From an uncultured Spirochaetales bacterium (lineage in GTDB: Bacteria > Spirochaetota > Spirochaetia > Sphaerochaetales > Sphaerochaetaceae), in NCBI GenBank assembly GCA_949295505.1, contig CASFLH010000017.1:1-61792 (forward strand): 61,792 nucleotides of DNA, read 5' to 3'. Each line of letters starts with the position of its first letter. Position 1 is the first letter of the stretch. The translations under genes were made by a program, and so were the position numbers. The notes under the pieces are model-generated. The model had not been told where the DNA came from. It saw nothing but the letters and a program-made list of their open reading frames with translations, and searched no databases. This document shows positions 2,916-56,170 of this stretch, in pieces.

Positions 2916-3569
2916 TTAATGTATAATTCTTTCCACTATAAGATTTTGATTTTTACAGATCATGCAAGGTGGAATATAACCACGAACGGATGAAAGCGGA
3001 TAGACAACGGAATCATGTCCGATGACAGTACCTGGATTGAGGACCGCGTTGCAGCCGATTTCCGCCCTGTCTCCTATGAATGCTCCGACTTTCTTCCTCT
3101 TTGTAAGAACTTCCCCATCCGGAAGGTGCAGCACGACTTCCTTTTTGTCTGACCGGAAATTCGAGGTTATCGACCCGGCGCCCATATGCGCCTTGTAGCC
3201 GAGGATGCTGTCTCCCACATAGTTGAAGTGAGGGACCTCTGCGCAGTCTGAGATTATCGCATTTTTCACCTCTACAGAGTTTCCTATCACAGCATTCTCC
3301 CCTATTATGGCATTCCCCCGGATAAATGCAGAGTGACGGATCTCCGTCCCTTTCCCGATGATGCATGGAGGCTGGATACATGCGCTGGGAGCAATGGAAA
3401 CATCTGAGGCCACCCATACGCCTTCTGACACTTCCATATATCCTGCCTTGGGGATGGATAGGATAAAATCATGAATTTCCCCAAGAGAATCTGTTATCAG
3501 GGGAAACGATGAGAAATAATCCCAGGCAATCGAGTGTCCAGGCTTAAAAAGCAGCTCAGCAATGTTCAC
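2916..3569 (-). CDS. Left-handed beta-helix (hexapeptide repeat) protein, GlmU C-terminal-like
   Basis: A 217-residue protein whose middle and C-terminal parts are hexapeptide repeats ([IVL]GxxxxI type, e.g. IIGKGTEIRHSAFI, IIGENAVIGNSV), folding as a left-handed beta helix. Blocks such as HFNYVGDSILG and GAGSITSNFRSD resemble the acetyltransferase half of GlmU and related sugar-nucleotide enzymes. The nucleotidyltransferase half is absent, so this is an acyltransferase or binding domain only. A GTG start at 3569 is preceded by GAGGA at 5 nt spacing. The gene overlaps the acetylesterase stop by 14 nt, so the two are translationally coupled. The substrate is unknown. Confidence 0.8.
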   Translation of the reverse strand: MNIAELLFKPGHSIAWDYFSSFPLITDSLGEIHDFILSIPKAGYMEVSEGVWVASDVSIAPSACIQPPCIIGKGTEIRHSAFIRGNAIIGENAVIGNSVEVKNAIISDCAEVPHFNYVGDSILGYKAHMGAGSITSNFRSDKKEVVLHLPDGEVLTKRKKVGAFIGDRAEIGCNAVLNPGTVIGHDSVVYPLSSVRGYIPPCMICKNQNLIVERIIH

Positions 3570-4221
3570 AGCAATCCTCTATCAGGGAAAGATGCTCTGA
3601 GATAAGCCGGGCTACCCAGGCGGCACCTTCCACACTCAGATGCGTATCATCCTGATTCCCATCAGGATAATTACCGTAAATCCCTGGCCCGAAATTCATG
3701 AACATCTTCTTCGAGCACTCATCCCCCATCGCGGCAATATCAACCATGGTGGGAATCGTCATATCTATGCAGGGAATCCCTGCTGTCGCAGCAGCGTATT
3801 TCATTGCAGCGGGCCAGTCTCCATGCGTATCAGAAAGCCTGCCATCGATGAATTTCCTTCGGGCTATCGGTGTGATGAAAACCGGTCTTCCTCCCTTTTC
3901 CTTCACACATTCTGCCATATAGATGAGATTTGCAATATATTCCTGCCAGGCAGGTGCCCCCCTTTCGGCATCATCAAGTTTCTCATCATTATGCCCATAC
4001 TGAATCAGGACAAGATCCCCTGATGTGATGGAATCCCGAACAGCCTGGAACTCACCACGGGCGATCACGTCCTTGGTCGATCTGCCGTTCACAGCCCTGT
4101 TATCAAGGCGCCATCCTGGCTTAAGGTACTTGCGGAAAGCCTCTCCCCAGCCTGTTTCAGGCCTTGCGGATTCTTCTTTCACTGCAGCTGTTGAGTCTCC
4201 GAGAATAAAAACCGTATTCAT
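3556..4221 (-). CDS. SGNH/GDSL hydrolase, rhamnogalacturonan acetylesterase-like
   Basis: A 221-residue carbohydrate esterase. SGNH block I is FILGDSTAA (nucleophile Ser), block II NRAVNGRSTKD (Gly), block III QYGHNDEK (Asn) and block V DDTHLSVEGA (Asp/His). The combination matches rhamnogalacturonan acetylesterases (CE12), which remove acetyl groups from pectin backbones. There is no signal peptide, so it acts on imported oligosaccharides (inference). The start is placed at ATG 4221, because the upstream in-frame ATG at 4248 lies inside the loop of the preceding gene's terminator hairpin. Only a weak AGAAG precedes the chosen start. Confidence 0.85.
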   Translation of the reverse strand: MNTVFILGDSTAAVKEESARPETGWGEAFRKYLKPGWRLDNRAVNGRSTKDVIARGEFQAVRDSITSGDLVLIQYGHNDEKLDDAERGAPAWQEYIANLIYMAECVKEKGGRPVFITPIARRKFIDGRLSDTHGDWPAAMKYAAATAGIPCIDMTIPTMVDIAAMGDECSKKMFMNFGPGIYGNYPDGNQDDTHLSVEGAAWVARLISEHLSLIEDCCEHC

Positions 4222-43732: not shown

Positions 43733-45079
43733 ATGGAAAACCTCAGCAGTATATGGCAGCAGGCAGCAGCGCATCTGGAAGAAACACTGCCAGAGTCTAA
43801 AAGACAGTGGATAAAGAGAATAAATTTCGAAAAAGAGGAAAACGGAAGAATGATTCTTTCGCTTTCATCAAGTTTTTACAAGGAAACGACAGAAAAGAAC
43901 TGCAAAACGGATATAGAGAACACAGTATCTGAGATAGCAGGTCATGAAATCCCTGTTGAATTCATTGTCAATACAGCAAGAAAACCTTCTCCAAGACAGG
44001 TACAGAAAGAAACAAAAAAAGAGAAAACAGAACCTGCCTCCAGAAATAACACTCTCAATAAACAGTATTCATTCGATAATTTCATTTCAGGGGATAACAG
44101 CAGCTTTGCGTTCAACGCATGCAAGGTTATAGCTCAGAATCCAGGCACATCATTCAACCCATGCTTGATTTATGGCGGAGTAGGTCTTGGAAAGACTCAT
44201 CTTCTTGAATCAATCGGAAATTATATTGATGAGCATAACCCTAAAATGAAAATCATCTACACAACTGCTGAAAGCTTTACAAATGAATTCATTGATTCTC
44301 TTCTTTCAAAAGAAAAGATATCATCATTCAAATCAAAATACAGAAATGTTGATGTTCTTCTTATCGATGATATCCATTTCCTTCAGAAGAAAGATTCTAC
44401 ACAGGAGGAGCTTTTCCACACATTCAATGAGCTTTATGACAATCATAAGCAGATAGTCCTTACCTGTGATCGTCCTATCACGGAGCTCACTGATATAACC
44501 GACAGGCTTAAGACAAGGTTCAGAAAAGGACTTAATGTTGACCTGCAGCCACCTGCATATGAGACAAGAATGGCCATTGCGATGCAGAAATGCAGGGAAA
44601 GAGGTTATCAGATAGACCAGAAAGTACTCGAATACATCTGTCAGAATATAAATACCAATGTAAGGGACCTTGAAGGCGCACTCACGACACTCAGCTCATT
44701 CGCAACACTAGTGGGAAAACCTGTGACACTTGATATAGCAAAAGAACAGCTGAAGAACTTCATAGTCACTCCTGCTATAAGGAACAGCGATATATCAATT
44801 GATAAGATAATCAGCAGTACAGCAGCCTATTTCAACGTAAAAGAGTACGATATCAAGGGTAAAAGCAGAAATAAGAACATCACTCTTGCGCGTCACATAT
44901 CTGTTTATCTGGCTTCTGAACTCACTTCATACTCACTTTCAGAAATCGGCAAGATGATGAATGGAAAAGATCATACTACAATCATGTATTCAGTCGAGAA
45001 GATAAAATCAATTCTGAATACAGATGACTCGGTAAGACAGGCAGTGAATACAATAAAAGAGGAGCTTCTGAACAACTGA
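43733..45079 (+). CDS. dnaA: Chromosomal replication initiator DnaA
   Basis: A 448-residue initiator. Domain I starts MENLSSIWQQAAAHLEE. Domain III has Walker A GGVGLGKTHLLES, Walker B VDVLLIDDIHFL and sensor TCDRPITELTDITDRLKTRF. Domain IV has the DnaA-box-binding signature GKDHTTIMYSVEKI. The longer frame back to 43667 spans the promoter, so ATG 43733 is chosen. No ribosome binding site precedes it, so translation is probably leaderless. Confidence 0.97.
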   Translation: MENLSSIWQQAAAHLEETLPESKRQWIKRINFEKEENGRMILSLSSSFYKETTEKNCKTDIENTVSEIAGHEIPVEFIVNTARKPSPRQVQKETKKEKTEPASRNNTLNKQYSFDNFISGDNSSFAFNACKVIAQNPGTSFNPCLIYGGVGLGKTHLLESIGNYIDEHNPKMKIIYTTAESFTNEFIDSLLSKEKISSFKSKYRNVDVLLIDDIHFLQKKDSTQEELFHTFNELYDNHKQIVLTCDRPITELTDITDRLKTRFRKGLNVDLQPPAYETRMAIAMQKCRERGYQIDQKVLEYICQNINTNVRDLEGALTTLSSFATLVGKPVTLDIAKEQLKNFIVTPAIRNSDISIDKIISSTAAYFNVKEYDIKGKSRNKNITLARHISVYLASELTSYSLSEIGKMMNGKDHTTIMYSVEKIKSILNTDDSVRQAVNTIKEELLNN

Positions 45080-45080
45080 G

Positions 45081-45355
45081 TTTTCCACAATCGGTGGAAA
45101 AACCCTGTGGAAAAACAGTGGAAAAGCTGTTTAAAGCATCTGGAAAAAATGTGGATGAATTCAATGTTTTCCACAGCGTGATGCAGCAAGTGCGCAATGC
45201 TGTGGAAAAGTAATGTTAACACAAGCATTTATCCACATTTTTATCCACAGGATAAATTATTATAAAACAATAAAATAATATGAGTTTTCCACATTTCCGC
45301 GACTCTTACTATTATTACTGCACTTATTTTATGATATATTAATAAACAATAAAGG
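45081..45355. other. Predicted replication origin (oriC): DnaA-box array and AT-rich element
   Basis: The dnaA-dnaN gap contains about ten DnaA boxes. Two are perfect TTATCCACA (45229, 45241). TTTTCCACA or its complement occurs at 45081, 45106, 45167, 45201 and 45285, with near matches at 45093, 45117 and 45150. AT-rich tracts at 45250-45284 and 45306-45355 are candidate unwinding elements. Gene orientation flips just to the left. Confidence 0.85.
45332..45340 (+). promoter_or_regulatory. Extended -10 of dnaN
   Basis: TGATATATT (45332-45340), with TTATTA 17 bp upstream, precedes the AAAGGAG ribosome binding site of dnaN. Confidence 0.45.
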
Positions 45356-52206: not shown

Positions 52207-53571
52207 ATGCCATCGGACAATACCGAGAAGCTTTTTCTTGGAACCAGCCCCGGACATCTTTTTTTCAAAGCAGCAATACCTGGTGCCTTGGGTATGCTTG
52301 CGTCGTCTCTTTATTACCTGCTTGAGGGTATTCTTGTAGGCCGTGTGCTTGGTGCAGAGCCTTTTGCCGCGATTAACCTCGCAATGCCTTTTGTCATCAT
52401 AAACTTTGCGATTTCAGACATGATCGGTGTCGGATCTTCTGTTCCGATTGCCATCAAGCTTGGACGAGGGGAAAAGGAAGAGGCCAACAGCATTTTCTCA
52501 GCTGCCATAGTCATGATAGCTGTTGCTGGCGTTATAACAGGATCACTTCTTTTCATTTCCGCGCCAACACTTTTCCATCTGATGGGTGCGGATGAGCACC
52601 TGATTCCATATGCTGTTGATTATCTGAGGATGTACGCATGCTTCTCTCCTCTTACGACCATGGTTTTCGCTATGGACAACTATCTGAGAATATGCGGAAA
52701 GATCAAAGGCTCGCTCATGATGAATATCTGCATGGCTTCAGCAGGTGTTGTCTTTGAGGTTTTCTTCCTCATTATACTGAAAGGAGGCATAGCCTCTGCA
52801 GCTCTTGGCACATGCTGCGGCATGAGTTCAGCGGTCCTTGTTGTGCTGTCCATTTTCCTCAGCGGCAGAATGAATCTCAGGTTCAGGAAGCCGCAGTTCC
52901 ATCTTTCTCTCATCAAAACCATTGTCTCATGTGGTTTGCCGACGTTTCTTTCCAATGTCTCTGGCAGGATAATATCCATCATCATGAATGTTCTCCTGCT
53001 TTCACTTGGAGGTGCGTCTGCAGTCAGTGTCTATGGTATCATCATGTCTGCCGACGGCGTCGTTATGCCTCTTCTCTATGGCACGTGCGATTCACTGCAG
53101 CCTTCTGTAGGATACAATTGGGGTGCAAGGAGATATGACAGGGTGGGGAAGATCGAGAGATACTGCTTCTCTACAGGAGCTATCATCTCTCTGCTTTTCG
53201 GATTGTTCCTGTTCTTCTTCCCAGACTTTGCAGTAAGCCTTTTTATTGAGGATAATAGTACGGGAATACACACGCTCGGCATAACAGCACTCAAGATCTC
53301 TGCCTTTGCTTTCATCTTCAGATGGATCGCTGTATGCACACAGTGTTTTATGTCTGCAATAGAGAAACCGTTCTACGCGGCATCTATTTCAGTATCCGCA
53401 GCCTTTGTTTTCCCTTTGATTCTCATTATTGCCCTGCATCCGATCGGACTTAATGGCATATGGATGAATCTCCCAGGGACGGCATTTCTGACAGCTATGC
53501 TTGCCCTGTTCATCCTCACTAGATACAGAGTGATTCTTGATAAAGAGAAAAAGCTCAGATCAGCTGATTGA
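52207..53571 (+). CDS. MATE-family efflux transporter
   Basis: A 454-residue inner-membrane drug/cation antiporter with about 12 hydrophobic segments. The N-terminal block FFKAAIPGALGMLASSLYYLLEGILVGRVLG and central PTFLSNVSGRIISIIMN fit the MATE family. Start ATG 52207 gives GGAGG at 7-nt spacing; two upstream in-frame ATGs overlap or abut that site. Its 3' end overlaps the opposite PfkB gene by 17 bp. Confidence 0.9.
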   Translation: MPSDNTEKLFLGTSPGHLFFKAAIPGALGMLASSLYYLLEGILVGRVLGAEPFAAINLAMPFVIINFAISDMIGVGSSVPIAIKLGRGEKEEANSIFSAAIVMIAVAGVITGSLLFISAPTLFHLMGADEHLIPYAVDYLRMYACFSPLTTMVFAMDNYLRICGKIKGSLMMNICMASAGVVFEVFFLIILKGGIASAALGTCCGMSSAVLVVLSIFLSGRMNLRFRKPQFHLSLIKTIVSCGLPTFLSNVSGRIISIIMNVLLLSLGGASAVSVYGIIMSADGVVMPLLYGTCDSLQPSVGYNWGARRYDRVGKIERYCFSTGAIISLLFGLFLFFFPDFAVSLFIEDNSTGIHTLGITALKISAFAFIFRWIAVCTQCFMSAIEKPFYAASISVSAAFVFPLILIIALHPIGLNGIWMNLPGTAFLTAMLALFILTRYRVILDKEKKLRSAD

Positions 53572-54541
53572 TTTTCCTTTTGATTTCTTCCATGCGCTCA
53601 GATGGAAACTGTGCTCCCATCTGGGCAACGATCTCCCCTGCAAGGAATGATGCAATCCTTCCTGATACAGCAGAAGAGAAGCCTTTTACGTAGCCATAAA
53701 GGAAACCTGCGGCATATGTGTCTCCCGCTCCTGTCGTATCGATGGGTTTTGTTGAACCATATAGCGGAATCTCAGTCATCTGACCATGATCAGAGATATA
53801 TGATCCGTTCTTTCCGTTTTTCACGACAGCTATGCTGCATAGCTTTCCCATTGAGCGGCAGCATTCATATGCATCATAATTATTGAAAAGGAATCTTGCT
53901 TCCTCACTGTTGGCGAATACTATATCGCAATAGTTGCTGACCAGATCCAGAAAATCCTGTCTGTAACGTCCGACAGCGAATGGATCTGCAAGATCAAATG
54001 CAACCTTGACATCGTTTTCCTTTGCGATTTCCAGTGCTTTGCGAACCGCGCTTTTCTGGGCTTCGGTGTCCCACATATATCCTGTGAAATAGAAAAGCTC
54101 CGCTTCGGAAGCACTTCTTGCATTCACTTTTCCCGCATCATATAAGCGGTTTGCACCGAGAAAAGTATTCATTGTCCTTTCTCTGTCCTGCGTTAGGAGG
54201 ATAATCGATGTTCCTGTGGCTGCCGGAAATGATACCGTCTCATCCTTGACGCTGTTTTCCCTGAGCCTCCTGCGGTACATTTCCCCATATTCATCATCTC
54301 CGACTCCGCCAGCCAGCGTGGTCTCGATTCCGAGCATCCGCAGTGTCACCATTGTATTTGGACATGATCCGCCGCATGAGATTGTCTTGTTTCTCTCCCT
54401 CATCCGTTCCAGTATTTCTGAACGTTTGCCTTCATCAATCAGGAGCATTGTCCCTTTATGCAGAGACAGTTCCTCTATATCGCTTTCATCCGCGTAACAG
54501 AGAAAATCAATGAGCGGATTGCCGATTCCATAGACAGCCAT
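53555..54541 (-). CDS. PfkB-family carbohydrate/adenosine kinase-like protein
   Basis: A 328-residue ribokinase-family enzyme. GGSCPNTMVTLRMLG and GGVGDDEYGEMYRR form the N-terminal half, and KPIDTTGAGDTYAAGFLYG is the catalytic signature with the Asp base. Overall it looks most like the adenosine kinase branch. The substrate is not certain. Start ATG 54541: TATACT ends 6 nt upstream, no ribosome binding site, and the longer frame to 54592 runs into DnaA boxes. Confidence 0.85.
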   Translation of the reverse strand: MAVYGIGNPLIDFLCYADESDIEELSLHKGTMLLIDEGKRSEILERMRERNKTISCGGSCPNTMVTLRMLGIETTLAGGVGDDEYGEMYRRRLRENSVKDETVSFPAATGTSIILLTQDRERTMNTFLGANRLYDAGKVNARSASEAELFYFTGYMWDTEAQKSAVRKALEIAKENDVKVAFDLADPFAVGRYRQDFLDLVSNYCDIVFANSEEARFLFNNYDAYECCRSMGKLCSIAVVKNGKNGSYISDHGQMTEIPLYGSTKPIDTTGAGDTYAAGFLYGYVKGFSSAVSGRIASFLAGEIVAQMGAQFPSERMEEIKRKINQLI

Positions 54542-54584: not shown

Positions 54585-54856
54585 TTTTCCACAGGTTTTC
54601 CACAGGTCAGTGGAATTGATGTGGAAAAGGTGGAAAAAGTCTTCTATAGGGGTTTAGATTAACACTATCAAATAAAGTGTAATATATAACATATTTATTT
54701 ATATTGAAATGATTTAATTAATATTGAAAACTCGTCAATAACATGGGATTTATATAAATTCAATGCAGAATTAATTGCGTTGAAATGACTGTGGAAAACC
54801 ATTTTCCCCCAGAGTTTTCCACAGGTTTTCCACAGTTATGAATTCAGTTATCCACA
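54585..54856. other. Second DnaA-box cluster flanking an AT-rich core
   Basis: Eight boxes in about 270 bp. TTTTCCACA occurs at 54585, 54596, 54815 and 54826; complements TGTGGAAAA at 54620 and 54790; near match GGTGGAAAA at 54629; and perfect TTATCCACA at 54848. Two tandem pairs (11-bp pitch, identical) stand 230 bp apart around an AT-rich block (54650-54780). The array fills the gap between the PfkB gene and the AAA+ gene, which holds no coding frame. Confidence 0.75.
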
Positions 54857-54921: not shown

Positions 54922-55947
54922 CTAGTGTCTTATCCCTTGCAGATATAGTTCTGCTTCCTTGAAAAGCTCCCTCACATTACCGGGAAAACTGTGCATGAAA
55001 TATGACATGTCAGGGATGTGCCTGATTTCTTCATGCTTGTTCCGTCTAAAGACCTCAAGCAGTTCGGGAATATCTTCAGGATGCTCGTCAAGACTTGGCA
55101 TTCTGATTTCCATGCCGGAGATCCGGTAGTAGAAATCCTTTCTGATCCTTTTCTCAGCAAGCAGTGAGGCAAGAGGCATGTTGGATGCTGTTATAAGGCG
55201 GAAAGAGGTCTTCATGATCAAGTCGGAGCCAAGTTTCCTGTATTCTCCTGAATCAAGCACGCGAAGCAGCTTTATCTGGATATTCAGAGGAAGGTCCTGT
55301 ATTTCATCTAGGAAAAGCGTTGATCCATTTGCCTCAGCAAGAAGACCTTCTCTGTTGTCATAGGCACCAGAGAATGCACCTTTGATATGTCCGAAGAGCT
55401 CACTGTCAGCAATATCCGTGGCAAGACAGCCACAGCTTTCCATCACTAATCTGCTGTCACCTTGCGAAAGAGTGTGAATAAGCTTTGCTGCAAGAGTTTT
55501 TCCGGTTCCTGTTTCTCCGACAATGTGAACAGGAAGGGTGGATTTTATAGCCATATGCAGCTGCTTTCTTGTCATTCTCATTATCTCAGAGCTTCCAGCC
55601 AGGGAATGCTGCAGTGAGTATGATATCTGATCCGAGTCTGCCATTTTCCTGATGATGATTGAGAGTTCTTCGTCTGTGCACCCTTTTCTGACAGGTATTG
55701 TCATTCCATCGGAGCTTCCAGGTATTGTATCATCTTCATGGAAAAGGATTATCCGTATTTCTCTTCCGAATCTCTCCATGAGAGACGGTTTTGCTGCTGA
55801 GGCATCCATTAGGATTACGTCATTCTTATCTATTCTTATCAGCGAAAGGCGTTGCGGTGACGGACAGGACACCGTCTCGTAATCCTGCAGCAAAGGAAGG
55901 ATTCTCTCCGACAGAATCCTTCCAAGTGAATATAAAATGAATTTCAA
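54922..55947 (-). CDS. Sigma-54-interaction AAA+ domain protein without visible DNA-binding domain
   Basis: A 341-residue protein with an N-terminal receiver-like or unique region (residues 1-125) and a sigma-54 activator AAA+ core: Walker A GETGTGKTLAAKLIH, ELFGHIKGAFSGAYDNREG (GAFTGA loop altered to GAFSGA), Walker B TLFLDEIQDLP, and RKDFYYRISGMEIRMPSLDEHPEDIPEL. It ends soon after FPGNVRELFKEAELYL, so the usual Fis-type helix-turn-helix is missing. TTG 55947 after AAAGGGGGA is the preferred start. It may act from solution or no longer activate sigma-54. Confidence 0.83.
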   Translation of the reverse strand: MKFILYSLGRILSERILPLLQDYETVSCPSPQRLSLIRIDKNDVILMDASAAKPSLMERFGREIRIILFHEDDTIPGSSDGMTIPVRKGCTDEELSIIIRKMADSDQISYSLQHSLAGSSEIMRMTRKQLHMAIKSTLPVHIVGETGTGKTLAAKLIHTLSQGDSRLVMESCGCLATDIADSELFGHIKGAFSGAYDNREGLLAEANGSTLFLDEIQDLPLNIQIKLLRVLDSGEYRKLGSDLIMKTSFRLITASNMPLASLLAEKRIRKDFYYRISGMEIRMPSLDEHPEDIPELLEVFRRNKHEEIRHIPDMSYFMHSFPGNVRELFKEAELYLQGIRH

Positions 55948-56170
55948 AATATCCCCCTTTTCCTTTACGATGGCTGATAATCCGATAATTATCAAAATAA
56001 AATGGCTGTTTATGAATCAAATGTTACATGTGTGTTGAAGAATTTAATGGCAGGCCTTTGCGGTATATATCACAATTCCTTATTATCAATACAGATAGTC
56101 TGCGATAGTGTGATAAAGGTATCAGAGAGGGGAAAAAAGATTTTCCAGAAGATGTCTGTTTTTCTGATAC

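Follow-up and report, generated by a model that had tools for sequence, protein, structure and literature searches.

Introduction

How initiation is held to once per cycle is largely unknown outside Escherichia coli and Bacillus subtilis. In E. coli, it is around oriC that DnaA boxes are most concentrated, an arrangement that favours titration. DARS1 and DARS2 lie far from oriC in that species. The datA locus of the same species needs a defined spacing between its boxes together with a bending site (PMC10380432). DnaA-box clusters near oriC are reported to repress untimely initiation in B. subtilis and Streptomyces (PMC4585315), and the deletion of the six such clusters of B. subtilis is reported to lead to early initiation (PMC13220808). 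Among spirochaetes, the DnaA protein of Borrelia binds dnaA-dnaN and other upstream regions (PMC9879097). The open-access literature that we searched contained no description of a DnaA control element of such kind for spirochaetes, Treponema or Sphaerochaeta.

Here we analyse a stretch of 61,792 nucleotides (hereafter the window) that forms the start of contig CASFLH010000017.1, from the MAG of a gut spirochaete (Candidatus Ornithospirochaeta), 1.76 Mb in size and rated 80% complete (GCA_949295505.1). Its dnaA has relatives at 82-94% identity in uncultured Spirochaetaceae and Spirochaetales and in Candidatus Ornithospirochaeta stercoravium. The window contains an array of DnaA boxes that is probably a previously undescribed switch timing the start of chromosome copying. 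We give a probability of about one half to our preferred reading, in which the array would be a cis-acting DnaA control site near oriC and separate from it, similar to datA or to the clusters of Bacillus and Streptomyces.

A cluster of DnaA boxes outside oriC

The array, at 54585-54856, comprises seven strict DnaA boxes (TTWTNCACA) and one with a single mismatch, which bears out the eight boxes in 270 bp counted by an earlier note on this DNA. The strict boxes start at 54585, 54596, 54815, 54826 and 54848 on the plus strand and at 54620 and 54790 on the minus strand; the whole window contains 18 of them against 3.5 expected, a number reached by none of 100 shuffles. The left module opens with a tandem pair, L1 and L2 (54585-54604, plus strand; TTTTCCACAGGTTTTCCACA), which is kept across genus and family, and continues with a strict inverted box 24 bp past L2 (54620-54628, minus strand) and the eighth, degenerate box (TTTTCCACC; 54629-54637, minus strand). 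Beyond an AT-rich core (54638-54789), the right module is made of a strict inverted box (54790-54798, minus strand), a second tandem pair, R1 and R2 (54815-54834, plus strand), and a strict TTATCCACA box 22 bp past R2 (54848-54856, plus strand). The two identical tandem pairs, described earlier as lying 230 bp apart, are a unique feature of the locus, as the genome has two copies of TTTTCCACAGGTTTTCCACA, both in the array and at that distance. Their description as mirrored has to be corrected: the two pairs repeat each other directly, with no change of orientation, and inversion is confined to the inner boxes.

The source genome holds 40 strict TTWTCCACA sites, 14 of which fall in the only two clusters that it has. 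Seven are found between dnaA and dnaN (45081-45293) and seven in the array, in agreement with the equal box density claimed for the two loci, and the remaining sites are scattered, at a number near the background of 18 given by the reversed pattern. Consensus DnaA boxes are here clustered in non-coding DNA outside oriC, as in the clusters of B. subtilis and Streptomyces, which are reported to restrain untimely initiation. Unlike the six B. subtilis clusters, the array is one site, with two modules arranged in a near-fixed manner on either side of an AT core, and it is kept in at least two spirochaete families. With E. coli datA it shares the presence of several DnaA boxes in non-coding DNA near oriC, their spacing being important in datA (PMC10380432); unlike datA, located at 94.7 min, it has at each end a direct tandem pair with an 11-bp pitch, and it lies ~9 kb from oriC. 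This likeness is one of layout and position.

Conservation and geometry of the array

Nearly all genomes of the genus have the array. The pair pattern TTTTYCACA-NN-TTTTYCACA was found in 42 of 48 genus genomes (its reversed control gave zero matches), and a reading of the loci placed G026, G031 and G034 among the genomes that carry the array without a strict pair. From pair to pair, 28 of 41 genus arrays measure 229-231 bp, most of those of another subclade 207-209 bp and that of G014 197 bp, some of these values depending on a degenerate box within a pair. The genus spacings of 230, 208 and 197 bp differ by 11 or 22 bp, that is, in 11-bp steps, which is at most suggestive of a helical phasing of the pairs. 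Outside the genus, spacings of 233, 223 and 204 bp are not all in phase, according to an estimate rather than a formal test. We do not claim strict helical phasing family-wide, because phases scatter across genera.

Absence from close relatives was what the earlier note would have taken as evidence against its proposal; the array is conserved in them and well beyond the genus. Arrays of the same plan occur in other genera of the family (g33, g31, g29, g30, g26, g136, g42 and g37), ~8-30 kb from dnaA, with a weaker candidate at 48 kb in G217, and in a second family (f26; G073, G093 and G165), ~10-12 kb from dnaA. Families f4 and f31 have one candidate array each, both weaker. Throughout the genus, the other genera and the second family, a distance of ~7-48 kb separates the array from dnaA; it is on the dnaN side, with its pairs on the strand of dnaA, and both side and strand are constant throughout family f1. 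Conservation near oriC is, in short, a property of the array. In two f24 genomes (G360 and G315), which we presume to be Treponema-like, there are two pairs 228-229 bp apart, but dnaA is on another contig, and the array may therefore not be close to oriC in every lineage. The 24-bp offset from L2 to the inverted box recurs in this group (G315; locus L203).

In f24, the arrays of the same plan at L203 (~2332-2614) and L204 (~2395-2679) have two genes next to them, one for a STAS plus zinc-ribbon protein and one that is polyprenyl-synthase-like. A reading frame near the G073 array resembles a STAS plus zinc-ribbon protein, as recognised by eye.

Independence from neighbouring genes

In the window, the array is flanked on the left by the gene of a PfkB-family sugar kinase (53555-54541, minus strand), absent beside the array in several relatives, and on the right by that of a sigma-54 activator-like AAA protein (54922-55995, minus strand); in one subclade the latter was not found next to the array, whose neighbour there is rsmE. 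The slot itself is constant: it has the dnaN-side gene block on one side and the s54-rsmE-ctpA block on the other, whether pfkB is present or not, and likewise for the sigma-54 activator gene.

A regulator of the pfkB promoter, said to be 32 bp away, was one of the roles put forward in the earlier note. PfkB most likely starts at the ATG at 54541, at a distance of 43 bp from the first box, and this proximity would suit a control by DnaA of the transcription of a neighbouring promoter (here pfkB) or of an unannotated RNA in the core, as would the binding of spirochaete DnaA upstream of replication genes in Borrelia (PMC9879097). However, the array persists where pfkB does not: in seven genomes (L102 and L107-L112) it lies between converging genes, matE or rbr (plus strand) and s54 (minus strand). 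L123 and L124 lack both pfkB and s54, and perR, on the left, is directed away from the array. Regulation of pfkB is therefore rejected as its main role. Moreover, neighbours vary between clades. A scan of the core for sigma-70 promoters and terminators gave counts below those of shuffles, and the array had zero Rfam matches at E up to 1, and we discarded both a promoter or terminator in the core and an RNA element. A transcriptional function appears quite unlikely to us, with some probability left to it because Borrelia DnaA binds other upstream regions in addition to dnaA-dnaN.

The array's independence from genes and its position near oriC would also be expected of a chromosome-organisation or anchoring site close to the origin, for which DnaA would serve as a handle on the DNA. 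Nothing in our results points specifically to such a site, which we hold to be highly improbable.

One genome (G035) has two pfkB copies on two contigs (L104 and L015) with an array beside each, the product of either a duplication or a mixed MAG.

The AT-rich core

No other part of the window is as unstable as the core at the 50, 100 and 150 bp scales, dnaA-dnaN coming second, which confirms the AT-rich block reported earlier inside the array. Unstable AT-rich DNA next to boxes, one of the marks of an oriC, is thus found here. In an alignment of the genus, a dyad-like TTAATT..TATA..AATTAA and a TATATA are conserved and the rest of the core is poorly so. The TATATA (54751-54756 in the window, 64 bp ahead of R1) stands 63/64 or 53/54 bp ahead of R1 in 37 of 41 genomes, against 0.58 in shuffled cores. 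The difference between these two offsets is close to one helical turn, and the shorter is found in separate clades of the dnaA tree, with few independent events available. Inspection of the core by eye showed no IHF consensus site; a protein of the HU/IHF family is encoded in 48 of 48 genus genomes, as a single copy in most.

Replication probably starts at dnaA-dnaN

The dnaA gene (43733-45079, plus strand; Pfam Bac_DnaA and Bac_DnaA_C) is followed by an intergenic region with DnaA boxes and a DnaA-trio run, CTCTTACTATTATTACTG, that is the likely oriC (45081-45320, plus strand), ~9 kb from the array. At the end of this region (45285-45320), a TTTTCCACA box, a 9 bp spacer and the trio run come in the textbook order, a clear predicted unwinding site for a spirochaete. 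In most genus loci read, the last dnaA-dnaN box likewise precedes a DnaA-trio-like run (for example CTTACTATTATTACTG), and in some subclades the run is further on or was not found in dnaA-dnaN. The mean DnaA-trio score, calculated with our own weighting and not with the published BUS program, is 8.4 at dnaA-dnaN versus 1.9 at the array, the latter being lower in 35 of 37 genomes; a DnaA box joined to DnaA-trios was not found at the array.

The cumulative GC skew tells the same story. In G188, G217, G065 and G032, where the array is 29, 48, 24 and 7 kb from dnaA, respectively, the skew minimum falls within ~1.1 kb of the end of dnaA, and in none of the four is it at the array. The skew analysis that the earlier note had advised for finding the initiation site leads to dnaA-dnaN and away from the array, which is separate from the GC-skew origin. 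We rejected the array as a replication start on these two grounds, the skew and the missing DnaA-trio.

The same data bear on the proposal that the array is an element of a bipartite oriC, that is, a second module that would loop to dnaA-dnaN to build the initiation complex, or would itself act as an occasional start site. The instability of the core, a box number equal to that of dnaA-dnaN and the constant side and strand relative to dnaA in family f1 all speak for it, and the two clusters near dnaA with AT-rich DNA recall the bipartite origins of B. subtilis and Helicobacter pylori. Yet known bipartite origins flank dnaA, whereas the array is not next to it, at a distance that varies between ~7 and 48 kb, and is devoid of a DnaA-trio. 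With both the skew minimum and the trio at dnaA-dnaN, we do not favour this proposal of the earlier note and consider it unlikely, with some probability left to a role as a distant helper.

A putative DnaA control site

The box variant (TTTTCCACA or TTATCCACA) covaries between the array and dnaA-dnaN (rho of 0.65 at position 3 and 0.45 at position 5, in 51 genomes and ignoring relatedness), as expected if DnaA reads both loci. From this and from the boxes themselves we infer that DnaA binds the array. We favour a DnaA control site because the array has a near-fixed geometry, is tied to the origin region and not to a gene, and bears the same boxes as dnaA-dnaN. A titrating site like datA is the best supported of the four roles suggested in the earlier note: the location of the array, its box layout, its AT core and its lack of ties to neighbours all speak for it, by analogy only.

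Such a site could work as follows. DnaA would bind the two box modules, each made of tandems at 11-bp pitch and inverted boxes, on either side of a core of nearly fixed length that is presumably easy to bend or melt. A bending protein, perhaps of the HU/IHF family, would join the modules into one complex, with looping of the DNA between them. Because the array duplicates soon after initiation, the capture or inactivation of DnaA would double at that point, when re-initiation must be blocked, and the position of the array thus suggests a negative effect. Several points go against this reading. The instability of the core equals that of an unwinding element, more than titration by itself would call for, no match to the IHF consensus was seen there, the helical phasing of the pairs is at most suggestive, and in f24 the array of the same layout is on a contig other than that of dnaA.

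Alternatively, the array could be a positive element, either a DARS-like site that exchanges ADP for ATP on DnaA or an enhancer that delivers DnaA to oriC from a distance. The inverted boxes beside direct pairs and the strict spacing would be in keeping with this, and the conservation and position data fit it equally well. Like DARS1 and DARS2 of E. coli, the array is a non-coding DnaA-box site outside oriC; unlike them, it is close to oriC, and their remoteness counts against a DARS-like function. Duplication right after initiation also suits a shut-off better than a reactivation, and we find a positive role improbable.

Returning to the control site, no Hda was found above the curated cut-off in the genomes examined, in which the best matches are DnaA itself. 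We give a little less than even odds to the array representing a deeply conserved spirochaete class of two-module DnaA-box sites, in which the AT core is near-fixed and the TATATA has a set position, and which would fold DnaA into a defined complex and time initiation without Hda. With no gene inside it and a geometry shared by a whole family, the element offers a direct target for the study of initiation control in spirochaetes.

Variation at dnaA-dnaN

The complete f24 genome G058 (L255, 1-19900) has zero strict DnaA boxes in the 7.7 kb from dnaA and hence none between dnaA and dnaN, if the two genes are adjacent; its origin layout may differ from the others. At L187 (G390), the dnaA-dnaN cluster (3286-3690) is very dense, with 18 boxes in 400 bp and runs at 11-bp pitch.
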